Below are positions 7,198 through 60,263 of a DNA stretch of 64,000 nt, piece after piece (positions within the stretch are counted from its first letter, which is position 1; every line of letters starts with the position of its first letter). A program made the position numbers and the translations under genes. The stretch comes from Comamonadaceae bacterium. GTDB taxonomy: Bacteria; Pseudomonadota; Gammaproteobacteria; Burkholderiales; Burkholderiaceae_C. The stretch spans positions 1 to 64,000 of the forward strand of contig JAIYBZ010000037.1 of NCBI GenBank assembly GCA_027488255.1. Direction: 5' to 3'. The notes below the pieces were generated by a model that was not told where the DNA came from, did no database searches, and saw only the letters and a list, made by a program, of their open reading frames with translations.

Positions 7198-7797
7198 TCA
7201 CGCCAAGGCCCGCTCTACAAAATCGAGTCGGTCTTGGCCCCAAAAAATTTCGCCATTCACCACATAGCTGGGCGCACCAAACACGCCCGCATCAATGGCG
7301 GACTGGGTGTAGCTTTCATAGCGCACCTGCACCGCTTGGCTGTGCGACTGCTCCAACAAACTGGCCGGCAACTGTTGCTCTTGCAGCAATTCAGCCAGCA
7401 CTTTGTCGTCGGCCATGTTGCGCTCTTGTGCCCAACAGGCGGCCAAAATAGCGCCGCTTATCGCCATCGCTGCAGCAGCCCCGTGCGCCAAATCGGCTGC
7501 AATGATCAAGCGCGCCGCATCGTCGCCGCCGACCGGAAAATATTTGGGCTTCACATTCAAAGGCACATTCAGAAACTGGCTGTAGCGCTGCAACTCCACC
7601 AACCGGTAGGCCTGTCGCTGTGGAGCGCGTTGGCCCAAGGGCAAGCCCCCAGAAATGGGAAACACCTTGCCCCCCAAATCAATCGGCATCACGCGAACCG
7701 TGGCGCCCGTTCGCTGAACAATCTCTGCCAATCGCTGGTGTCCCAAATAAGCCCATGGGCTTTGTGGGGCGAAGTAATAGTCCACTGTGCGACCCAT
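7198..7797 (-). CDS. 2-hydroxychromene-2-carboxylate isomerase (DsbA-fold, GST kappa-like)
   Basis: A 199-residue protein with the HCCA isomerase signature: N-terminal VDYYFAPQSPWAYLGHQRL with Ser in the glutathione-contacting position, KPKYFPV in the middle and C-terminal GVFGAPSYVVNGEIFWGQDRLDF. The family uses glutathione to isomerise hydroxychromene carboxylate in naphthalene catabolism, but most homologues have no proven substrate. AAGGAG precedes the ATG. Divergent from the SDR gene across a 69-bp AT-rich spacer that must hold both promoters. Confidence 0.85.
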   Translation of the reverse strand: MGRTVDYYFAPQSPWAYLGHQRLAEIVQRTGATVRVMPIDLGGKVFPISGGLPLGQRAPQRQAYRLVELQRYSQFLNVPLNVKPKYFPVGGDDAARLIIAADLAHGAAAAMAISGAILAACWAQERNMADDKVLAELLQEQQLPASLLEQSHSQAVQVRYESYTQSAIDAGVFGAPSYVVNGEIFWGQDRLDFVERALA

Positions 7798-7866
7798 AGA
7801 GGCTCCTTCTCTGTTGTGTAATCTTTGTACATTTATATCGGCCTTTTATTTTGCAGGAGACAAAGC

Positions 7867-8613
7867 ATGAGCAAGGTCTTGTTGGTGACCGGCGGCAGCC
7901 GGGGGATCGGCGCCGCCAGCGCCCTTTTGGCGGCACAACAAGGATGGGCCGTGGCGGTGAATTACACCGCCAACTCTTTGGCAGCCGATGAGGTGGTGCG
8001 TCAGATTCGTGCCTCGGGCGGACAAGCCATGGCCATCCAAGCCGATGTGGCCGACGAAGCGCAGGTGCTGCGCATGTTCGAGCACATCGATGCCAAGCTG
8101 GGGCGACTGCAAGGCTTGGTCAACAACGCGGGCGTGGTGGACATGACGGCCCGGGTTGACGAGATGAGCGTCGCGCGGTGGAAGCGCATGTTCGACATCA
8201 ACGTGATCGGCAGTTTGATTTGCGCGCGTGAAGCGGTGCGCCGCATGAGCACCCGGCATGGTGGCGAGGGCGGCAGCATCGTCAATGTCTCCAGCGCCGC
8301 CGCTCGACTGGGCGCACCTGGTCAATATGTGGACTATGCGGCCGCCAAAGGCGCGATCGACGCCTTCACCATCGGCTTGGCCAAAGAAGTGGCGGCAGAA
8401 GGCATTCGCGTCAACGCGGTGCGTCCCGGCCTGATCGAAACGGAGATCCACGCTTCGGGCGGCTTGCCCAACCGCGTGAAAGACTTGCAGCATTTGGTGC
8501 CCGCGCAACGCGGCGGCAGCGCGCAAGAGGTGGCCGAAGGCATCGTCTGGCTGCTGAGCGAGCAAGCCAGTTACACCACCATGAGCTTTTTAGACATCTC
8601 TGGAGGTCGGTGA
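7867..8613 (+). CDS. SDR family NAD(P)-dependent oxidoreductase
   Basis: A 248-residue short-chain dehydrogenase, glucose-dehydrogenase/FabG-like. It has the cofactor motif TGGSRGIG (residues 8-15), NNAGV, catalytic Ser in VSSAAARLG, and YxxxK as YAAAKGAID. The C-terminus LDISGGR is the family's tetramer-contact end. The ATG at 7867 has the Shine-Dalgarno AGGAG. Its TGA overlaps the ATG of the MaoC-like gene, suggesting the two enzymes act on related acyl/hydroxyacyl substrates. Confidence 0.88.
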   Translation: MSKVLLVTGGSRGIGAASALLAAQQGWAVAVNYTANSLAADEVVRQIRASGGQAMAIQADVADEAQVLRMFEHIDAKLGRLQGLVNNAGVVDMTARVDEMSVARWKRMFDINVIGSLICAREAVRRMSTRHGGEGGSIVNVSSAAARLGAPGQYVDYAAAKGAIDAFTIGLAKEVAAEGIRVNAVRPGLIETEIHASGGLPNRVKDLQHLVPAQRGGSAQEVAEGIVWLLSEQASYTTMSFLDISGGR

Positions 8614-50003: not shown

Positions 50004-51107
50004 TCAGGCGCCTGAACTGCCCGTAGGCGCCGCGCCCACCTGAATCGCCCCACGCCGAATCTGGTCTCGCTCCAGGCTTTCAAACAGCGCCTTGAAGTTA
50101 CCTTCGCCAAAACCCTCATCGGCCTTGCGCTGAATGAACTCAAAGAACACCGGGCCCAGCAGGGTTTGGCTGAAGATTTGCAGCAGCAAACGCTTCTCGC
50201 CGTTGGCGGTTGAGCCGTCCATCAAAATGCCGCGCGCTTGCAACTCTGGCACCGCCTCGCCATGGCCCGGCAGGCGCTCTTCGAGCATCTCGTAATAGAT
50301 CTCGTTGGGCGCGGTCATGAGTGGAATGCCCGCCATTTGCAGCGCGTCCACGCTTTTCAAAAGGTCGTCCGTCAGCAGTGCGATGTGCTGAATGCCTTCG
50401 CCGCTGAACTGCATCAAAAACTCTTCGATCTGCCCGCCGGTCTTGCCAGACTCTTCGTTCAACGGAATCCGAATCAGCCCATCGGGCGCCGTCATGGCAC
50501 GGCTGGTGAGGCCGGTGTATTCCCCTTTGATGTCGAAGTAGCGGATCTCACGGAAGTTAAAAATCTTCTCGTAAAACTGACCCCAAAAAGCCATCCGGCC
50601 CTTGTACACGTTGTGCGTCAAATGGTCGATGACCTTGAAGCCATGGCCCGGCGGGTGGCGGTCCACGCCCTCAATGAATTCAAAGTCGATGTCGTAAATG
50701 CTTTTGCCGTCTTCGTAACGGTCAATCAAATACAAGGGCGCACCTCCAATACCTTTGATGGCGGGCAGGCGCAGCTCCATGGGGCCCGTGGGCACTTCCA
50801 CGGGTTGCGCACCCATCTCGAGCGCGCGGGCATAGGCCTTGTGCGAGTCTTTCACGCGAAATGCCAAAGCGCAGGCGCAAGGGCCATGCTCGGCAGCAAA
50901 GTAGCCCGCCAAGCTTTTGGGCTCGCGGTTGACAATGAAATTGATGTCGCCCTGGCGGTAAAGCACCACGTCTTTGGACCGGTGGCGGGCCACCAAAGTG
51001 AAGCCCATTTTTTCGAACAGCGGCTCGAGGGTGTGGGCGAGGGGCGAGGCGAACTCGACGAACTCGAAGCCGCACAGGCCCATGGGGTTGTCAAACAAAT
51101 CGGCCAT
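50004..51107 (-). CDS. hppD: 4-hydroxyphenylpyruvate dioxygenase
   Basis: Non-haem iron enzyme converting 4-hydroxyphenylpyruvate to homogentisate in tyrosine breakdown. The 367 residues contain the iron ligands: His in VIDHLTHNV, His in GIQHIALLT, and Glu in [11 protein letters not shown]. Other family marks are [19 protein letters not shown] and [18 protein letters not shown] 51107 is chosen as the family start; the longer frame runs into the 215-bp upstream spacer. No hmgA or other tyrosine genes adjoin it. Confidence 0.94.
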
Positions 51108-51322: not shown

Positions 51323-52303
51323 TTATTGCGGCTCGATGCCGACTTTTTTCACCAAAGCCGCATAGCGTGTCATCTCGCTTCGAAAGGCTTTTTGGGCGTG
51401 CTCTGTGCTGCTGATGTTGATGGTGTTGCCCTGCTTGGCCATGGTGTCTTTGACGGTGGCGTCGTTGAAAGCGGCAACCACGGCATCGTGCACTTTTTTC
51501 ACCTGGGCTGGGGCCATGCCCTTGGGGCCCACCACCGCAAACCAGGCCTCCATGTTGTAGCCGGTGAGGCCTTGCTCGACAAAGGTTGGGATTTCAGGAG
51601 CGGCCGCGGTGCGTTTGTCCGCGCACATGCCAATGGCGCGCAAAGCACCGGTTTTGATGTGCTGCGCCACGCTGGGCAAAGCGACCACAGCAAAATCAAT
51701 TTGTCCGCCCAACAAATCGGTGACCATAGGGCCCACGCCTTTGTAGGGAATGTGGCGCGCCTTGACGCCGGCTTCATCGATGAACATTTCGCCGGCCAAA
51801 TGCAAGATGGTGCCCGTTCCGCCAGAGCCAAAGTTGTAGCCATCCGGTTTGGCTTTCAATGCGGCGATGAATTCGCGGCTGTTGGTGGCCGTGACCTTTT
51901 GTGGGTTGACCACCAGCACCATGGGCGTGCTGCCCACCACCGCAATCGGTGTGAAGTCGCCGGGCATGTCAAACGGCAAGTTTTTGATCACGCTCGGAAA
52001 AATCACCACGTTGTTGGACACCACCGAGAGGGTGAAACCATCGGGTGGGTTTTTGGCCAGGGCCTGCAGGCCAATCACGCCGCTCGCACCGGCTTGGTTT
52101 TCGACCACCACCGAGGTGCCCAAGGCCTTGCCCAGGGCGGGTGCGGCGGCGCGTGTGATCGCGTCCACGCCCGAGCCGGTGGCGTTGGGCAAGATGAACT
52201 TGACGGGGCGGTCTGCTTGCGCCACAGCCCAGCCCGGCAGGGCCATCGACGAGGCAGCGGCCAGTACCGTCAACACGGTGCGGCGAGATGCGAAATGTTT
52301 CAT
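51323..52303 (-). CDS. Bug family tripartite tricarboxylate transporter substrate-binding protein
   Basis: A 326-residue periplasmic binding protein with signal peptide (SRRTVLTVLAAASSMALPGWAVAQ, given in part). It shows the Bug pattern: VKFILPNATGSGVDAITRAAAPAL, VVENQAGASGVIGLQALAKN, and FGSGGTGTILHLAGEMF. Bug proteins bind dicarboxylates and similar small anions for TctAB-type permeases or as orphan sensors; no TctAB is in the window. It is third in a run after a CoA-transferase and an HMG-CoA-lyase-like gene, so its ligand is likely the substrate of that pathway. Confidence 0.88.
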   Translation of the reverse strand: MKHFASRRTVLTVLAAASSMALPGWAVAQADRPVKFILPNATGSGVDAITRAAAPALGKALGTSVVVENQAGASGVIGLQALAKNPPDGFTLSVVSNNVVIFPSVIKNLPFDMPGDFTPIAVVGSTPMVLVVNPQKVTATNSREFIAALKAKPDGYNFGSGGTGTILHLAGEMFIDEAGVKARHIPYKGVGPMVTDLLGGQIDFAVVALPSVAQHIKTGALRAIGMCADKRTAAAPEIPTFVEQGLTGYNMEAWFAVVGPKGMAPAQVKKVHDAVVAAFNDATVKDTMAKQGNTINISSTEHAQKAFRSEMTRYAALVKKVGIEPQ

Positions 52304-52342
52304 GGTGTGTCTCTTTCTTTTTGAAGGGTGGTGGGAAATTTA

Positions 52343-53542
52343 TCAGGCAACAGCTTTTTGCGCTCGCAAATGCTCAATTTCTACCGGGCTCAAACCCAGG
52401 CTTTGCAACAGCTCGTCGGTGTTCTCGCCTTGCTTGGGGGGCTGGTGGCGTACCCCCAGCCGCTGACCGTCCATGGTGAACGGAAACAGCGCGGCGCGTG
52501 CGGTTTGACCCGCTTTGGGGCCATCGGTCAAACGCACTTCAGCCAAGCCGCCCGTGGCATTCAGGTGCGGGTCGTCAAACAGTTCTTCGGGTTTGGCAAT
52601 GGGTGCAAAAGGCAATCCGGCTTTTTCAAAAATTACCGCCAACTCAGCGGCACTGAAAGCCTCTAGGCGACGGCGTAACTCGGGCAACAACACGCTGCGC
52701 ATCGACACACGGGCATTGTTGTCGGGGTAGCGTGGGTCGGCTTTCAGGTCGGCAAAGCCCAGCACCTCACAAAACAAAGCCCACTGCGCATCGCTCACCG
52801 CCGCCAAGAAAATTTGCTCGCCGTTTTTAACGGTGAACACGTCGTACACCGCCCATGCCGAAATGCGGTTGGGCATGGGCTCGGCGGCATGCCCCGTGAT
52901 GGCGTACTGCAGCATGTGCTGGCCCACCAAGAACACATTGTTTTCAAACAGTGCCGATTGGATTTCTTGTCCGCGCCCGGTGATGCCCCGCTGGATCAAA
53001 GCGCCCAACACGCCTATGGCGCCAAACATGCCACCCATGATGTCGTTCACGCTGGTGCCGGCGCGCAAAGGGTCGCCCGGGCGGCCGGTCATGTAGGCCA
53101 AGCCGCCCATCATCTGTACCACCTCGTCGAGCGCGGTGCGGTGGTCGTAAGGACCCGGCAAAAAGCCCTTCAGGCTGGCGTAAATCAGCTTGGGGTGGTG
53201 CGCCGACAAGCTGGCGTAGTCGAGCCCGTACTTGGCCATCGAGCCGGGCTTGAAATTCTCGGCCACCACATCGGCGGTGGCACACAAACGCCTTGCCACT
53301 GCCGCGCCTTCGGGGTTTTGCAGATTGAGCTGAATGCTTTTTTTGTTGCGGTTGAACATGGGGAAAAACCCCGCGCCCGAACCCAACAAATGGCGTGTGC
53401 GGTCGCCCTCAATGGGCTCTACTTTGATGACCTCGGCCCCCATGTCGGCCAACACCATGCCGCAAGTCGGGCCCATCACCATGTGCGTGAACTCAACCAC
53501 GCGCAGGCCTTCAAGGGGGAGTTTTTTATCTAAAGCGTTCAT
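52343..53542 (-). CDS. CaiB/BaiF (class III) CoA-transferase
   Basis: A 399-residue class III CoA-transferase. Visible marks are GLRVVEFTHMVMGPTCGMVLADMGAEVIKVEP, the catalytic Asp region VVAENFKPGSMAKYGLDY, GLAYMTGRPGDPLRAGTSVNDIMGGMFGA and LPFAPIAKPEELFDDPHL (shown in parts). Relatives move CoA between succinyl-CoA and a carboxylate such as citramalate, itaconate, glutarate or HMG. ATG 53542 gives an ATGA overlap with the lyase gene, so the product is probably the lyase's substrate. Confidence 0.9.
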   Translation of the reverse strand: MNALDKKLPLEGLRVVEFTHMVMGPTCGMVLADMGAEVIKVEPIEGDRTRHLLGSGAGFFPMFNRNKKSIQLNLQNPEGAAVARRLCATADVVAENFKPGSMAKYGLDYASLSAHHPKLIYASLKGFLPGPYDHRTALDEVVQMMGGLAYMTGRPGDPLRAGTSVNDIMGGMFGAIGVLGALIQRGITGRGQEIQSALFENNVFLVGQHMLQYAITGHAAEPMPNRISAWAVYDVFTVKNGEQIFLAAVSDAQWALFCEVLGFADLKADPRYPDNNARVSMRSVLLPELRRRLEAFSAAELAVIFEKAGLPFAPIAKPEELFDDPHLNATGGLAEVRLTDGPKAGQTARAALFPFTMDGQRLGVRHQPPKQGENTDELLQSLGLSPVEIEHLRAQKAVA

Positions 53543-54483
53543 GCCATCAAGGGGGTGGGGCGCAAGGTTTTGGGCAATCCCGCCTGCGCAATCGCGCCAT
53601 GCAGACATTCACCCGTGAGCCACTGCGCCACAGAGTTGCGCAAAGCCATGAGCTTATCGAAATCAATGCCGGTTTCAATGCCCATGCTGGCCATCAAATA
53701 CACCACATCTTCGGTGGCCACATTGCCACTGGCGCCTGGCGCATGGGGGCAGCCGCCGATACCTGCCAAACAAGCGTCAAAACGGGTCTCACCCGCCTGC
53801 AAAGCGGCCATCAAATTGGCCAGGCCCAAGCCCCGCGTGTCGTGAAAGTGGCCACAGCCCAAACGAGGCCCCGCCACTTGACGGGCCTGCGCAAACAATG
53901 CGCCCACTTGGCGCGGATCGGCATAGCCCACCGTGTCGGCCAGCCCCACTCGGTCGACGCCCAGCGCCAGCACCGCATTGAGCAAGCGCAGCACCTCGTC
54001 GGCCTCAACCCGCCCTTGCAGGGTGCAACCAAATGCAGTGCTGATGCCGACTTCGATCTGAATGGCCGAGCCCCTCAACCTGCGCGCCTCGACCATCGCC
54101 GCAATGTCTGCCAACACCTCGTCAGGGGTTTTGCGCAAATTGGCCAAGCTGTGGGCATGGCTGGCCGAAAGCGGCAACAGCATCCCATCGGCACCACTGT
54201 CCATGGCCCGCTCGGCCCCTTTCAAATTGGGCACCAAAACCGTGACACACAGGCCCGGCAAGGTTTTGGCAAATGCCACCAAGTCGTGCGTGTCGGCCAG
54301 CTGCGGCAACAGTTTGGGCGGCACAAAAGAGCCCACCTCGATCTCGCGCACGCCTGCGTCGTAGGCCGCTTGAATCCACTGCAACTTTTGCGCCGTGGGC
54401 AGGGTGCGGGCCAGACTTTGCAGCCCGTCACGCAGGCCCACTTCTCGAACCGTGACCCGCTCGGGCCATTGAGATGCGTTCAT
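53539..54483 (-). CDS. HMG-CoA lyase-like aldolase (HMG-CoA or citramalyl-CoA lyase)
   Basis: A 314-residue TIM-barrel lyase. It has REVGLRDGLQ at the start (metal Asp and catalytic Arg), EVGSFVPPK, GHFHDTRGLGLAN (metal His pair) and the flexible-loop Cys in GGCPHAPGASGN. Family members cleave HMG-CoA to acetoacetate plus acetyl-CoA; a branch including the Chloroflexus enzyme cleaves (R)-citramalyl-CoA to pyruvate plus acetyl-CoA. The context (CoA-transferase, aconitase-type dehydratase, Bug protein) makes citramalyl-CoA or HMG-CoA both possible. First gene of the leftward operon. Confidence 0.88.
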   Translation of the reverse strand: MNASQWPERVTVREVGLRDGLQSLARTLPTAQKLQWIQAAYDAGVREIEVGSFVPPKLLPQLADTHDLVAFAKTLPGLCVTVLVPNLKGAERAMDSGADGMLLPLSASHAHSLANLRKTPDEVLADIAAMVEARRLRGSAIQIEVGISTAFGCTLQGRVEADEVLRLLNAVLALGVDRVGLADTVGYADPRQVGALFAQARQVAGPRLGCGHFHDTRGLGLANLMAALQAGETRFDACLAGIGGCPHAPGASGNVATEDVVYLMASMGIETGIDFDKLMALRNSVAQWLTGECLHGAIAQAGLPKTLRPTPLMA

Positions 54484-54547
54484 GCCAACCGTCTTTCTGT
54501 CGATGGACCCCGAGTTTAATGTTTCCGTTTGGTCATAAAATTCAATT

Positions 54548-54575
54548 ATGGAAATAGTTTTGTTCCATTTTGGAA
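54548..54575. promoter_or_regulatory. overlapping palindromes, likely LysR operator
   Basis: In the 99-bp divergent spacer, ATGGAA (54548-54553) pairs with TTCCAT (54563-54568), and TTCCA (54563-54567) with TGGAA (54571-54575), so the two dyads share an arm. This suits a LysR regulator binding both sides of the region. The end abuts the LysR start codon at 54583. Confidence 0.6.
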
Positions 54576-54582
54576 TATCTAA

Positions 54583-55500
54583 ATGCGTGATCTCGACCTG
54601 ACCTCACTGCGCTTGTTTGTGACCGTCTGCGACACCGGCAACATGAGCCGCGCCGCAGAAAAGGCCAATATGGTGGCCTCGGCCGTGAGCAAGCGGCTGG
54701 CGCAACTGGAGGCCACCGTCGGCGCCAGCCTGCTGGTGCGGCGCAAACACGGGGTGCTGCCCACGCCCGCCGGTGAAACGTTGCTCGAGCATGCGCGCAG
54801 CATTTTGTTGAGCACCAGCCGCATCGAGCGCGACATGGCCAGCCACGCCGCAGGCATCCAAGGCCGGGTGAATGTGTTGGCCACCGCCTCGGTGATGGCC
54901 GAAACCTTGGCCGATGAAATCGCCGAATTTTTAAAACAAGCCGAACACCAGAACATCCAAATTGATTTGGAAGAACGCATCAGCCCGGACGTGGTGCGCG
55001 GCATTCACGAAGGCGTCGCCTCCATTGGCATTTGCTGGGATGCCGCTGAAACGGGTTTGCTGCACACCCGCACCTACCGATACGACCACCTGTGTGTGGC
55101 CGTGCCCAAGGGGCACCCCTTGTGCCAACGGGCGCAAGTGCGTTATGCAGACACCCTCGACTTTGAGCACGTGATCATGCCGGTGAACTCGGCAGTGGAA
55201 GTGATGCTGCAACGCGAAGCGGGTTTGTTGGGCAAGCGCCTGCATCACCGCGTGATCGTGACCAACTTTGAGGCCGCCTTGCGCGTGGTGCGGGCCGGGC
55301 TGGCGATAGCCTTGGTGCCGCGTGAAGTGACACCGGTGTACGCCAAGGCCTACGGCTTGGAAATTTTGCCCTTGCAAGAAGCATGGTCGCGCCGTCGTTT
55401 TGTGCTGTGCCACCGTGGCGAAGAGGTGCTGACACCGGCCGCTCAATTGCTGCTGAACTATCTCACGCAAGGCCCCGGCGCCGATACCGCAGCCCCATGA
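54583..55500 (+). CDS. LysR family transcriptional regulator of the dicarboxylate cluster
   Basis: A 305-residue LysR-type regulator. Its HTH segment NMSRAAEKANMVASAVSKRL and VRRKHGVLPTPAGETLLEHA are followed by a co-inducer domain (GRVNVLATASVMAETLADEI; DVVRGIHEGVASIGICWD). It is divergent from the lyase/CoA-transferase/Bug operon, and its TGA overlaps the ATG of the aconitase-like gene. It therefore probably controls both arms in response to the cluster's substrate. Confidence 0.88.
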   Translation: MRDLDLTSLRLFVTVCDTGNMSRAAEKANMVASAVSKRLAQLEATVGASLLVRRKHGVLPTPAGETLLEHARSILLSTSRIERDMASHAAGIQGRVNVLATASVMAETLADEIAEFLKQAEHQNIQIDLEERISPDVVRGIHEGVASIGICWDAAETGLLHTRTYRYDHLCVAVPKGHPLCQRAQVRYADTLDFEHVIMPVNSAVEVMLQREAGLLGKRLHHRVIVTNFEAALRVVRAGLAIALVPREVTPVYAKAYGLEILPLQEAWSRRRFVLCHRGEEVLTPAAQLLLNYLTQGPGADTAAP

Positions 55501-57563
55501 ACAGCAGCCCCCGCATGTCCCTCTTTGATGCCCACGCCCGGCCGCTCAAGGTGCTGTACCTGAGCCAAGACCCAGCGATGATTCGCCGTCAATTGGCGGG
55601 CGAGAGCTTGACACGGGCTCAAGCCGGTGCGCTGCGCGACGATGTGTCGACCGATGAAATCACGCCCGTGCATATCTTGAGCCATTACGACCATCGTCTA
55701 GGCGACTTTGCACACACCGGTCTGCGCTGCCAAGACGAGCGCCCCATCGCTCAGCAAGCCCTTCGACAATCCGGTTATCGCATCTTGGTGGCGGGGCGTC
55801 GCTATGGCAAAGGCTCTTCGCGCGAGCACAGCCCCACCGCCGAAAAACTGGCAGGCATTGAGGTCGTTTTTGCCGAAAGTTTTGAACGCATTTACCGGCA
55901 AAACGCCGACAACATCGGCTTGTTCACCAGCACCGATTTCAACTTGCTGGCGCGCTTGGAGCGTGGCGAGGGGCTGACCTTGGCCGACCTGCTGAAGGAG
56001 CGCGAAGGGTTGGCCGCTGGTGTTTTGCAAGCGGGTGGTTTGCTGCGCTGGGGCCAGCAACACTTGCGCCCGGACAAGGGCGGTCCAGCGCAGCACACCG
56101 ATTTTTCCTCCGACTCGGAGCCCGATGCAGGGGGGCGGCCACAGCACTTGTTTGAAAAAATCTTGCAGCGCCATCGCTGGCCAACACCCCACACGCCTGA
56201 ACGACCGCATGTCGGAGACGGGCTTTTCGTGCATACCGATTGGCGCTTTATTCACGAGTACTACACCGGCATGGCCGACACCTTGCTCACGCAAGCGCTG
56301 GGGCCGCAGATCACGCTGCACCGTCCAGAGCAGATCGTGGTGTTCGAAGACCACACCTCGTATGTCGAAGAAAGCCCCGCGCATGTGCGAGGGGGATTGG
56401 TGCCACAAATGCACGCCATGCGCCAAGCGCAACGCGATTTCGCGCAACGCCATGGCCTGCGCATGCACCGCACCTTGACAGAAGCCGAAGCCAAAGCGGA
56501 GGCCTTGCGCGAGAGTACAGCGCATGCGGCCGGCATCTCACACGCCATGGTGGCCGAACACTTTGCAATGCCCGGCCAGGTGGTGGTGGGGACCGATTCA
56601 CACACCCCGCACAGCGGGGCTTTGGGGTGCGTGGCTTTTGGCGTGGGCACCACCGACATGGCCAATGCCTTCGTCACCGGGGCGGTGCGCTTGGCCATAC
56701 CCGAGTGCGTGCGCGTCACGTTAAAGGGAGCACTGCACCCTGGCGTGACCGCCAAAGACCTGATGCTGCACCTGTTGGCGACGCCCTGGATTCGGGCTGG
56801 CCATGGGGTCGGCAAAGTGTTTGAGTTTGCTGGTGAAGGCATTGCCCACTTGCGCACCGATGAACGCGCCACCCTCACCAACATGTGTGCCGAGTTGGGC
56901 GGCCTGACAGGCATCGTCGCCCCCGACCCAGAGACCTGTCGGTTTTTGAAGGAACGTCGGGGCATCGATTTTGAAATCGAGGCCTGGATGCACAGCGATG
57001 CAGATGCCCCGTTTGTACACACCATTGAGGTGGATCTTTCTCGCCTGAGCCCCATGGTGGCCCGACCCGGTGACCCGGGTCTGGGTTTGGCCTTGTCCGA
57101 TTTGCAAGAGCGAGTGCCCATTGACATGGCTTACGGCGGCTCTTGCACAGCAGGCAAACGCGAAGACTTTGACCATTACCACGAAGTGCTGGCTTGGGGG
57201 CTGAAGCAGGGCTTGACGCTGCCAGCAGGGGTGCAGGTGTTTTTGCAGTACGGCACCACCGCTGTGCGCGACTACTGCGCAGCGCGGGGCTATGACACCA
57301 CCTTTGCGGCCATGGGCGTGCGCATTTTGCAGCCCTCGTGTGGGGCCTGCGCCAACTGCGGTCCCGGCTCGTCCACCGAGGCCAAGCAAGTGACAGTGAG
57401 CGCCATCAACCGCAATTTCCCAGGCCGCTCCGGGCCGGGGCAAGTTTGGCTGGCCAGTCCGCCTACCGTGATGGCGAGTGCGCTGGCGGGCGAGCTGATT
57501 TCATTTGAAGCCTTGCAGCAGCGCAGCACCCTGGCAGTCCTGCGCGACAAAACTCATCGGTAA
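55497..57563 (+). CDS. aconitase/isopropylmalate isomerase superfamily dehydratase, swivel domain first
   Basis: A 688-residue fusion of small and large subunits of the LeuCD/aconitase type. Residues about 1-200 are the swivel (LeuD-like) domain: DEITPVHILSHY and YGKGSSREHSPTAEKLAGI. Residues about 250-680 are the catalytic (LeuC-like) part: VVVGTDSHTPHSGALGC, AYGGSCTAGKREDF and PSCGACANCGPGSS, which provide the 4Fe-4S cysteines. Ordinary aconitases have the swivel at the C-terminus. It likely hydrates/dehydrates a branched dicarboxylate such as citraconate-citramalate. ATGA overlap with the LysR gene; a second Met at residue 7 is also possible. Confidence 0.85.
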   Translation: MNSSPRMSLFDAHARPLKVLYLSQDPAMIRRQLAGESLTRAQAGALRDDVSTDEITPVHILSHYDHRLGDFAHTGLRCQDERPIAQQALRQSGYRILVAGRRYGKGSSREHSPTAEKLAGIEVVFAESFERIYRQNADNIGLFTSTDFNLLARLERGEGLTLADLLKEREGLAAGVLQAGGLLRWGQQHLRPDKGGPAQHTDFSSDSEPDAGGRPQHLFEKILQRHRWPTPHTPERPHVGDGLFVHTDWRFIHEYYTGMADTLLTQALGPQITLHRPEQIVVFEDHTSYVEESPAHVRGGLVPQMHAMRQAQRDFAQRHGLRMHRTLTEAEAKAEALRESTAHAAGISHAMVAEHFAMPGQVVVGTDSHTPHSGALGCVAFGVGTTDMANAFVTGAVRLAIPECVRVTLKGALHPGVTAKDLMLHLLATPWIRAGHGVGKVFEFAGEGIAHLRTDERATLTNMCAELGGLTGIVAPDPETCRFLKERRGIDFEIEAWMHSDADAPFVHTIEVDLSRLSPMVARPGDPGLGLALSDLQERVPIDMAYGGSCTAGKREDFDHYHEVLAWGLKQGLTLPAGVQVFLQYGTTAVRDYCAARGYDTTFAAMGVRILQPSCGACANCGPGSSTEAKQVTVSAINRNFPGRSGPGQVWLASPPTVMASALAGELISFEALQQRSTLAVLRDKTHR

Positions 57564-58025: not shown

Positions 58026-60263
58026 TCAGGCCTTCACGGCCGCCAAAGCGGCATTGAAGGTGGCACTGGGGCGCATGATGGCGGCCAACTTGGCTTGGTC
58101 AGGCATGTAATAGCCGCCAATATCCACCGGCTTGCCTTGCACCGCATTGAGTTCGCCGACGATCTTTTGCTCGCCCTCGGTCAATTGCTTGGCCAAGGGT
58201 GCAAACTGCGTGGCCAAAGCCGCGTCTTCGGTTTGCGCGGTCAATTCTTGCGCCCAATACAGGGCCAAGTAGAACTGGCTGCCGCGGTTGTCCAGCTGAC
58301 CGGTCTTGGGCGAGGGGTTTTTGTTGTTGTCGAGCAGTTTGCCGGTGGCGGCATCCAGCGTCTTGGCCAACACCACGGCTTTCTTGTTGCCGGTTTTCAG
58401 ACCCAGGTCTTCCAACGACACGGCCAAGGCCAAAAACTCGCCCAACGAATCCCAGCGCAAGTGGTTTTCTTCCACCAACTGTTGCACGTGCTTGGGCGCA
58501 GAGCCGCCGGCACCGGTTTCGTACATGCCGCCGCCGGCCATCAATGGCACCACCGACAACATCTTGGCCGAGGTGCCCAGCTCCATGATGGGGAACAAGT
58601 CGGTCAAGTAGTCGCGCAAGATGTTGCCCGTGGCACTGATGGTGTCCAAGCCGCGGATCACGCGCTCGAGGGTGTAACGCATGGCGCGCACTTGGCTCAT
58701 GATCTGGATTTCCAGACCGGCGGTGTTGTGCTCGTGCAGGTACATCTTGACCTTGGTGATCAATTGCGCCTCGTGAGGGCGGTACTGGTCGAGCCAGAAC
58801 ACCACGGGCATGCCAGAGTTGCGCGCACGGGTGACGGCCAGCTTGACCCAGTCGCGGATCGCGGCGTCTTTCACTTGGCACATGCGCCAGATGTCGCCGG
58901 TCTCGACGTTTTGCGACAACAGCACTTCACCGGTGTTGATGTCGGTGATGTTGGCCACGCCGTCTTCAGAAATTTCAAACGTCTTGTCGTGCGAGCCGTA
59001 CTCTTCGGCTTGCTGTGCCATCAAGCCCACGTTGGGCACGGTGCCCATGGTCTTGGGGTCGAAGGCGCCATGCCATTTGCAGAAGTTGATCATCTCTTGG
59101 TAGATGCGCGCAAATGTCGATTCGGGCATCACGGCCTTGACGTCTTTCAGTCGGCCGTTAGCATCCCACATCTTGCCGCCGTTGCGGATCATGGCGGGCA
59201 TCGATGCGTCCACGATCACGTCGTTGGGCGAATGGAAGTTGGTGATGCCTTTGGCCGAGTCGACCATCGCCAACTCGGGACGGTGCTCGTGGCAAGCGTG
59301 CAAGTCGCGCTTGATTTCTTCTTGCTTGGACTGTGGCAGTGAGGTGATCTTGTTGTACAGATCGGCCATGCCGTTGTTCACGTTCACGCCCAATTCGTCG
59401 AACAGTTTGGCGTGCTTGGCGAACGCTTCTTTGTAAAAAATCCTGACGCAGTGACCGAACACGATGGGGTGCGAGACCTTCATCATGGTGGCCTTGACGT
59501 GCAGCGAGAACATCACGCCGGTCTTGCGGGCGTCTTCGATTTCTTTTTCGTAAAACTCCAACAGCGCTTTCTTGCTCATGAACATGCTGTCGATGACTTC
59601 ACGGTCGAGCAAGGCCACTTTGGGTTTCAAGACAATGGTTTTGCCGCTCTTGGTGATCAGCTCCATCTTGACTTCACGTGGGCGGTCCATGGTCATGGAC
59701 TTTTCGCCATGGTAAAAGTCACCGGCGTGCATGTGCGAGACGTGCGAGCGCGAAGCTTGGCTCCACTCGGCCATGCTGTGTGGGTTTTTGCGCGCAAACT
59801 CTTTCACGGCACGAGGGGCGCGGCGGTCTGAGTTGCCTTCGCGCAGCACTGGGTTGACGGCCGAGCCGGTGCACTTGGCATAGCGCGCCTTGATGGCTTT
59901 TTCTTCGTCGGTTTTGGGGTTTTCGGGGTAGTCGGGCAGGGCATAACCCTTGGACTGCAATTCTTTGATGGCGGCGGTCAACTGGCCCACCGAAGCGCTG
60001 ATGTTGGGCAGCTTGATGATGTTGGCCGATGGCTGCAAGGTCAACTTGCCCAATTCGGCCAGGTTGTTGGGGGCGCGCTGGTCAGCGGGCAGCAAATCAG
60101 AGAATTCACCCAAAATTCGGGCGGCCACAGAAATGTCGCTCTCGGCCACTTCAATGCCGGCAGGAGCGGTGAAGGTGCGAATGATCGGCAAAAACGACGC
60201 GGTGGCCAACAAAGGCGCTTCGTCAGTCAGGGTGTAAATGATCTTGGATTTGTCTGCAGCCAT
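58026..60263 (-). CDS. icd: NADP-dependent isocitrate dehydrogenase, monomeric type
   Basis: A 745-residue single-chain isocitrate dehydrogenase, about twice the size of the dimeric form and unrelated in length to it. Characteristic segments: [40 protein letters not shown], the substrate Ser/Asn region [15 protein letters not shown], and [21 protein letters not shown] (shown in part). It oxidises isocitrate to 2-oxoglutarate in the TCA cycle, making NADPH. ATG 60263 is the family start. Monocistronic, with its own terminator and a 293-bp upstream spacer. Confidence 0.95.

Follow-up and report, generated by a model that had tools for sequence, protein, structure and literature searches.

In Chloroflexus, a class III citramalate CoA-transferase is followed by an R-citramalyl-CoA lyase resembling 3-hydroxy-3-methylglutaryl-CoA (HMG-CoA) lyases; to our knowledge neither a dehydratase, nor a Bug-type binding protein, nor a 4-hydroxyphenylpyruvate dioxygenase (HPPD) accompanies this pair. 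The Pseudomonas cluster PA0878-0886 for itaconate and branched dicarboxylates also places CoA transfer before the cleavage of citramalyl-CoA, with a lyase, Ccl, that belongs to another family. We know of no lyase and transferase modules in the classical homogentisate pathway of tyrosine degradation, formed by HPPD, HmgA and FahA. Homophenylalanine and homotyrosine biosynthesis rely on HphA, an enzyme of the DRE-TIM type, and on HphCD. The former, a 2-benzylmalate synthase, naturally acts on phenylpyruvate and 4-hydroxyphenylpyruvate; the latter is described as a 3-benzylmalate dehydratase (isomerase) (PMC12961565). Here we analyse a gene cluster related to all of these systems, found in a 64,000-nucleotide stretch (the window; contig JAIYBZ010000037.1, positions 1 to 64,000) of a Limnohabitans (Burkholderiales) assembly of 2.6 Mb in 38 contigs. 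We propose, with a probability of about one half, that the cluster serves the uptake and breakdown of an acid of the 2-(arylmethyl)malate type, foremost 2-(4-hydroxybenzyl)malate (eucomate), from which the lyase would yield 4-hydroxyphenylpyruvate and acetyl-CoA.

The features of the locus, in window coordinates, are:
50007-51107, minus strand: hppD, 4-hydroxyphenylpyruvate dioxygenase, full-length match to solved HPPDs
51323-52303, minus strand: Bug / TctC-type periplasmic carboxylate-binding protein (PF03401, 214.5 bits)
52343-53542, minus strand: class III CoA-transferase (PF02515, 372.4 bits, residues 10-375)
53539-54483, minus strand: HMG-CoA-lyase-like (DRE-TIM) lyase (PF00682, 157.5 bits)
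54550-54575, no strand: putative LysR operator GGAA-N9-TTCC-N5-GGAA, in the divergent promoter region between lyase and LysR
54583-55500, plus strand: LysR-type regulator (PF00126 and PF03466)
55497-57563, plus strand: fused aconitase-type dehydratase/isomerase (PF00694 swivel first, then PF00330, 290.7 bits)

Compared by description only, the cluster resembles HphA/HphCD in combining an enzyme of the DRE-TIM type with an isomerase called dehydratase, in that case acting on benzyl- and 4-hydroxybenzylmalates, but differs in its proposed catabolic direction, its class III CoA-transferase, its Bug or MFS uptake and its HPPD. With the Chloroflexus pair, likewise compared by description, it has in common a class III transferase succeeded by an HMG-CoA-lyase-like enzyme, and with the Pseudomonas cluster the order of CoA transfer and cleavage. 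Its connection with the homogentisate pathway is one of position, since the module is adjoined by hppD and, in related genomes, also by hmgA and fahA-like genes.

The original prediction, made from the letters of the window, had grouped the five genes from Bug to the dehydratase. Sequence and domain scans bear out their coordinates and families, and both ATGA overlaps that it had pointed out are seen in the sequence, one joining lyase stop and transferase start (53539-53542, minus strand) and the other LysR stop and dehydratase start (55497-55500). The longest open reading frame of the dehydratase starts at 55383, the ATGA-coupled start being 55497. As a description of the cluster the prediction was incomplete, because it left out hppD, located 215 bases downstream of Bug on the same strand, and the operator pattern at 54550-54575.

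Evidence for an aromatic substrate comes from hppD. Its product scores 637 bits against the solved enzyme 9qmf (residues 2-356) and 618 bits against 1cjx, and since it matches the canonical enzymes its substrate should be 4-hydroxyphenylpyruvate. An action on aliphatic 2-oxo acids, turning 4-methyl-2-oxoglutarate into citramalate or ketoisocaproate into 3-hydroxy-3-methylbutyrate, was set aside on the same ground. In 11 loci hppD overlaps the preceding lyase, transferase or Bug gene or starts within 2-83 bases of its end, with gaps of -8 (L187, L189), -4 (L145), +2 (L138) and 26-83 bases (L124, L127, L135, L136, L137, L139, L142). An hmgA and/or a fahA-like gene is found in the same stretch in L135, L137, L138 and L141, and hmgA in L172. 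Thus L135 has lyase, hppD, hmgA, transferase and Bug, with the fahA-like gene within the stretch; L138 reads lyase-transferase-Bug-hppD-fahA-like; L141 has lyase, transferase, Bug, a hexapeptide protein and hppD, followed further on by hmgA and by fahA-like and maiA-like genes (by eye); L172 has lyase, transferase, Bug and hmgA; and hppD, hmgA and the transferase stand together in L146. Plasmid pPT365 of Paraburkholderia terrae is annotated with lyase, CoA-transferase, hppD, MFS transporter and aconitase family protein in this order, separated by 10-82 bases, with LysR divergent; the transporter has its best match in the aromatic acid/H+ symport family, at 181.5 bits, below the cut-off of 418.55. 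Caballeronia Sq4a maintains the pPT365 order, with hppD detected by tblastn only, over ~240 of its 367 residues and at a spot where no gene is listed, so that it may be broken.

This linkage was counted in 299 genomes of the host's GTDB family, in which HPPD was called at E up to 1e-150, the dehydratase at E up to 1e-100, and the lyase of the cluster type (lyase A) at 61% identity or more. HPPD is present in 117 genomes. It occurs together with lyase A in 38, and in 13 of these the two genes are no more than 8 kb apart, compared with 2 of 31 for the more distant tier-B lyases (50-56% identity; counted among the matches listed). On these counts, uncorrected for kinship and genome size, chance adjacency of HPPD is rejected. 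A lyase tree was built by a quick method and leaves 31 of its 72 inner branches open; in it, lyases linked to HPPD occupy at least four places: clade A2, Limnohabitans, L135, and L143/L144 within tier B. In clade A2, HPPD is nearby in 11 of 14 rows, hmgA only in one and neither in two. Tier-B lyases, or modules of transferase and lyase, also recur near a gene that by eye resembles malate synthase G (L157, L160-L162, L146, L170).

Among Limnohabitans-type loci, hppD adjoins the transferase in 13 of the 14 in which the latter is at least 90% identical, L036 and L051 being one genome. The locus that departs from this is L049, where the transferase is 90% and the dehydratase 75% identical; the lyase match between them falls to 36% and is partial (7532-7957), and no hppD was found there. 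A second set was taken from hppD itself (20 of 26 near-full-length hppD rows, from 19 genomes, with some contigs common to the first set). Seven of these 20 loci have the full cluster, one has it without the dehydratase, one reads Bug-transferase-hppD and three transferase-hppD; in two more, another lyase subtype (65%) overlaps hppD by 8 bases and such a transferase is absent. HmgA (PF04209) gave no match in any of 30 genomes of Limnohabitans (for 17 of these, completeness is 90% or more and contamination low), and a protein search found none in the four Limnohabitans of the 299-genome sample. In this genus, devoid of HmgA matches, 14 of the 20 loci still have hppD together with the lyase, the transferase or both, which points to a role of the module upstream of HPPD; a role downstream of ring cleavage was set aside for this reason.

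Lyases of this superfamily release a keto product and an acyl-CoA, and 2-(4-hydroxybenzyl)malyl-CoA is the simplest thioester that would give 4-hydroxyphenylpyruvate and acetyl-CoA. The corresponding free acid, eucomic acid, occurs as a metabolite in plants. We propose a pathway in which the acid would be taken up via Bug, after which the fused aconitase-type enzyme would convert a 3-isomer or a dehydrated acid into the 2-(4-hydroxybenzyl)malate form. The class III transferase would then place CoA, probably from succinyl-CoA, on the CH2-carboxylate, and the lyase would split 2-(4-hydroxybenzyl)malyl-CoA into acetyl-CoA and 4-hydroxyphenylpyruvate. HPPD would turn the latter into homogentisate, whose ring would be cleaved by HmgA and FahA encoded elsewhere or, in Limnohabitans, perhaps through an HmgA-less operon of monooxygenase, VOC protein and FahA. 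The scheme would be the HphA and HphCD chain lengthening in reverse, with CoA pre-activation; we infer every substrate and every direction in it. A little short of even odds, in our view, is the complete route, serving 2- and 3-(4-hydroxybenzyl)malates, either plant eucomate and its kin or the acids of the cyanobacterial homotyrosine pathway, by CoA-activated reversal of HphA/HphCD, and feeding in freshwater Limnohabitans a homogentisate pathway of FAD monooxygenase, VOC dioxygenase and FahA instead of HmgA.

Apart from hppD, the five genes recur together at ~56-93% identity (LysR 41-91%) in other genomes, and therefore their grouping is not due to chance. Contigs were scanned around the best 80 of 296 dehydratase relatives and five further loci, 85 in total. 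Two arrangements are conserved. In genomes that include Limnohabitans, Ramlibacter, Caenimonas and Polaromonas, lyase, transferase and Bug accompany the dehydratase, LysR mostly lying between them, while in Azohydromonas (L077), L038 and L151 the order is lyase-transferase-Bug-dehydratase in one direction with LysR divergent; L038 belongs to another family of the same order, its dehydratase being 56% identical. On a plasmid of Roseomonas gilardii the lyase and the transferase form a single protein of 755 residues, in which both domains were recognized by scanning (L123, 6716-8983) and whose gene overlaps the dehydratase gene by 4 bases; a plasmid of R. mucosa has in the same place a single gene of similar length (L197, 3728-5983), identified by length and position. 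Lyase A occurs in 72 of the 299 genomes and the dehydratase in 23. Of these 23, 20 have lyase A as well, whereas among the 276 without the dehydratase 52 do (Fisher p 4e-11, uncorrected for kinship and genome size). The two genes lie within 8 kb of each other in 9 of those 20 genomes (tier-B lyase and dehydratase, among the matches listed, in 0 of 10), so they associate even when unlinked. That the genes make up a single pathway combining uptake, (de)hydration by an aconitase-type enzyme, transfer of CoA and cleavage of a carbon-carbon bond, the core of the original prediction, is thus supported by the two orders, by the Roseomonas fusion and by the co-occurrence of dehydratase and lyase.

The dehydratase is also found in other company. 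In Achromobacter, Bordetella, Cupriavidus, Variovorax and Acidovorax it stands with Bug and a different LysR (~29-38% identity), with no such lyase or transferase adjoining and in some with an RraA-like gene; the Limnohabitans-type loci L056-L058 have dehydratase and Bug only. An RraA-like gene, perhaps for an aldolase or decarboxylase, follows dehydratase and Bug in L122, L126, L121, L103, L111 and L120. Further candidates for shared pathway genes did not emerge, none being common to more than 5 of 18 non-Limnohabitans loci as called by a simple open reading frame caller.

The lyase, with 277.6 bits, passes the cut-off of 246 of the NCBIfam model PRK05692, and when 75 lyases were aligned with four solved HMG-CoA lyases it proved to retain the catalytic residues of RD, HxHDT, GGCP and GN. 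It is devoid of the NEK, FGAASE/FAAASE and CPYEG/CPYDG motifs of the human and P. aeruginosa HMG-CoA lyases, having instead S-L-A, PLSASH and CTLQG; these motifs are a guide rather than a proof, as the solved enzymes 1ydo and 6nds deviate at some positions too. A canonical HMG-CoA lyase with NEK, FGAASE and CPYEG is encoded elsewhere in the host genome (L131, G000:C20:26750-27565). As far as the motifs tell, therefore, the cluster lyase would not be a second HMG-CoA lyase. The transferase is far under the cut-offs of all seven NCBIfam models listed, the best being succinate--glutarate CoA-transferase (259.7 bits, cut-off 750). Its class III matches include 9fn0, a benzylsuccinate CoA-transferase subunit, and hence enzymes of this class accept benzylsuccinate-like acids.

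The host has three genes of the aconitase family, a LeuC-like and an AcnB-like one, both named by length and domain match, and the cluster dehydratase. The latter is a single chain with the swivel (LeuD-like) domain before the Fe-S domain. Its closest solved relatives are subunits of isopropylmalate/citramalate isomerases; SCT, PSC and AC (Fe-S ligand motifs SCT, PSCxxC) align to 4kp1, and GSSRE and RNFxGR are invariant across 95 aligned rows. The specificity-loop position corresponds to Ser62, with Ser in 45 rows, Thr in 41, Val in 4, Ala and Tyr in 2 each and Leu in 1, that is, Ser or Thr in 86 of 95 and Arg in none, whereas Arg is found in the homoaconitase small subunit and Val in that of isopropylmalate/citramalate isomerase. 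The loop of 2pkp reads YLRT-like, and we take the Arg of YLRT to denote homoaconitase-like recognition of the distal carboxylate. The loop residues thus speak against homoaconitate and do not discriminate methyl from hydroxybenzyl. Maleate was considered as a further candidate substrate of this enzyme.

The pattern GGAA-N8-13-TTCC-N5-GGAA is present in 39 of 55 divergent regions between lyase and LysR, against a mean of 0.005 in resampled sequences; two duplicates were dropped, and many loci are close kin, so 39/55 overstates independence. It is found in dehydratase-linked, stand-alone and HPPD-linked modules, with 6 of 13 in clade A2. The window by itself proves no operator, since the half pattern TTCC-N5-GGAA occurs there once with 0.9 expected by chance. 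As pattern and LysR family span the clades, we read this putative operator as indicative of one regulator family with one inducer class.

Several observations weigh against 4-hydroxyphenylpyruvate as the general product. The co-occurrence of lyase A and HPPD over the 299 genomes is modest (38 with both, 34 and 79 with lyase A or HPPD only, 148 with neither; p 0.005), and 13 of the 72 lyase-A genomes have neither a close HPPD nor HmgA. Outside Limnohabitans, of 22 loci in which dehydratase and lyase lie no more than 8 kb apart, just two also contain HPPD, L124 (partial) and L127, a count in which flanks vary and L098, with a lyase only 41% identical, is omitted. Among six sampled genomes from outside Limnohabitans in which dehydratase and lyase are neighbours, three (G408, G490, G563) lack both HmgA and a close HPPD; in these, the 2-oxo product would need a different fate or is a different acid. 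Six of the 20 Limnohabitans hppD loci carry no lyase or transferase of this kind, and the Bug-hppD gap (215 bases here, 211-372 in other Limnohabitans where measured) means that hppD could have its own promoter. A Leu of the lyase tentatively mapped to HphA Ala73 would disfavour a large side chain, although this mapping is unsure and thus no test. The scarcity of HPPD outside Limnohabitans, the genomes without HPPD and HmgA, and the 215-base gap hold our estimate at about one half.

The main rival, which the original prediction had preferred, is that the dehydratase converts citraconate into (R)-citramalate, the transferase forms citramalyl-CoA and the lyase releases pyruvate and acetyl-CoA, HPPD being an unrelated neighbour. 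We regard it as unlikely, although it fits the many loci without HPPD. In its favour, the five genes are a self-contained unit in Ramlibacter and others, half of the six sampled genomes with adjacent dehydratase and lyase do without close HPPD and HmgA, the solved relatives nearest to the dehydratase are isopropylmalate/citramalate isomerases, and a methyl group would go well with the small Ser or Thr of the specificity loop. Moreover, such a route is wanting, as P. putida with the P. aeruginosa genes PA0878-0883 is reported to have metabolised neither (R)-citramalate nor citraconate (PMC9875883); should only this C5 reading hold, the cluster would supply it. A C5 substrate nevertheless leaves unexplained why hppD, with HmgA or FahA-like genes, is recurrently linked to the module and overlaps it, and why an aromatic-acid-type MFS transporter is present in the P. 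terrae run.

Improbable too, in our estimation, is that the unit handles some other 2-substituted malate (e.g. phenyl, alkyl or tartrate-like), lyase-A members differing in their 2-oxo acid so that the HPPD-linked ones make 4-hydroxyphenylpyruvate and the Ramlibacter-type ones do not. The clades do differ in transferase subtype (56-61% in clade A2, 69-93% in the others) and in neighbours, and stand-alone lyase-A modules have no HPPD or HmgA beside the lyase, except L172 with hmgA, in a sample picked for lacking HPPD; the operator pattern and LysR family common to the clades argue on the contrary for a common inducer class. Very unlikely is the conversion of HMG or 3-methylglutaconate into acetoacetate and acetyl-CoA, an alternative of the original prediction; on this reading the homogentisate genes would be linked through acetoacetate as common end product. 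The PRK05692 score and the likeness of the transferase to succinate--glutarate/HMG CoA-transferases would suit it. It is weakened, however, because the host has the canonical enzyme, whose three motifs are absent from the cluster lyase, and because the hppD link persists in Limnohabitans without HmgA. Furthermore, aconitase-type enzymes require a vicinal dicarboxylate, which HMG does not offer.

For eucomate-type acids as the substrate, the missing HmgA leaves the fate of homogentisate in the host unproven, a further point against our proposal. A gene with the fumarylacetoacetase N-domain is present in 13 of the 30 Limnohabitans genomes, including the host, in which a MarR-type regulator, a flavin adenine dinucleotide (FAD) monooxygenase, a VOC/extradiol-type protein and FahA (531.8 bits, cut-off 375.3) form a run (L203, 7598-11977; G000:C25, ~21.6-26.0 kb). 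Parts of this run are also found in L198-L202 and L204, the VOC protein being called in L199, L201 and L203 and the monooxygenase not called in L202. The VOC protein of such runs has a close solved relative in 9u42 (252 bits), and in L187, L189 and L193 hppD is followed by a protein of that Pfam family which looks similar by eye (L187 scanned). From its gene content, the run could be a candidate HmgA-less homogentisate route. The question extends beyond this genus: 71 of the 117 family genomes with a close HPPD gave no HmgA match at E up to 1e-60, a gap that leaves homogentisate ring cleavage unaccounted for in many Burkholderiales.

A description of this gene set was not found in the open-access literature, which, being limited to open papers, is weak evidence of absence; the accessible parts of PMC9007349 and PMC6562525 contain nothing on it, and eucomic and piscidic acid are absent among the literature matches listed. 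If our proposal is true, genes labelled hydroxymethylglutaryl-CoA lyase and aconitase family protein on plasmid records would be part of a separate pathway for aromatic acids, and a degradation route would be at hand for a class of acids from plants. Beside the cluster, convergent with the dehydratase, the window has at 58026-60263 (minus strand) a large gene that by eye resembles monomeric NADP isocitrate dehydrogenase; such a gene was not seen in the 16 kb of L036 and is present, again by eye, in L149, L183 and L188.

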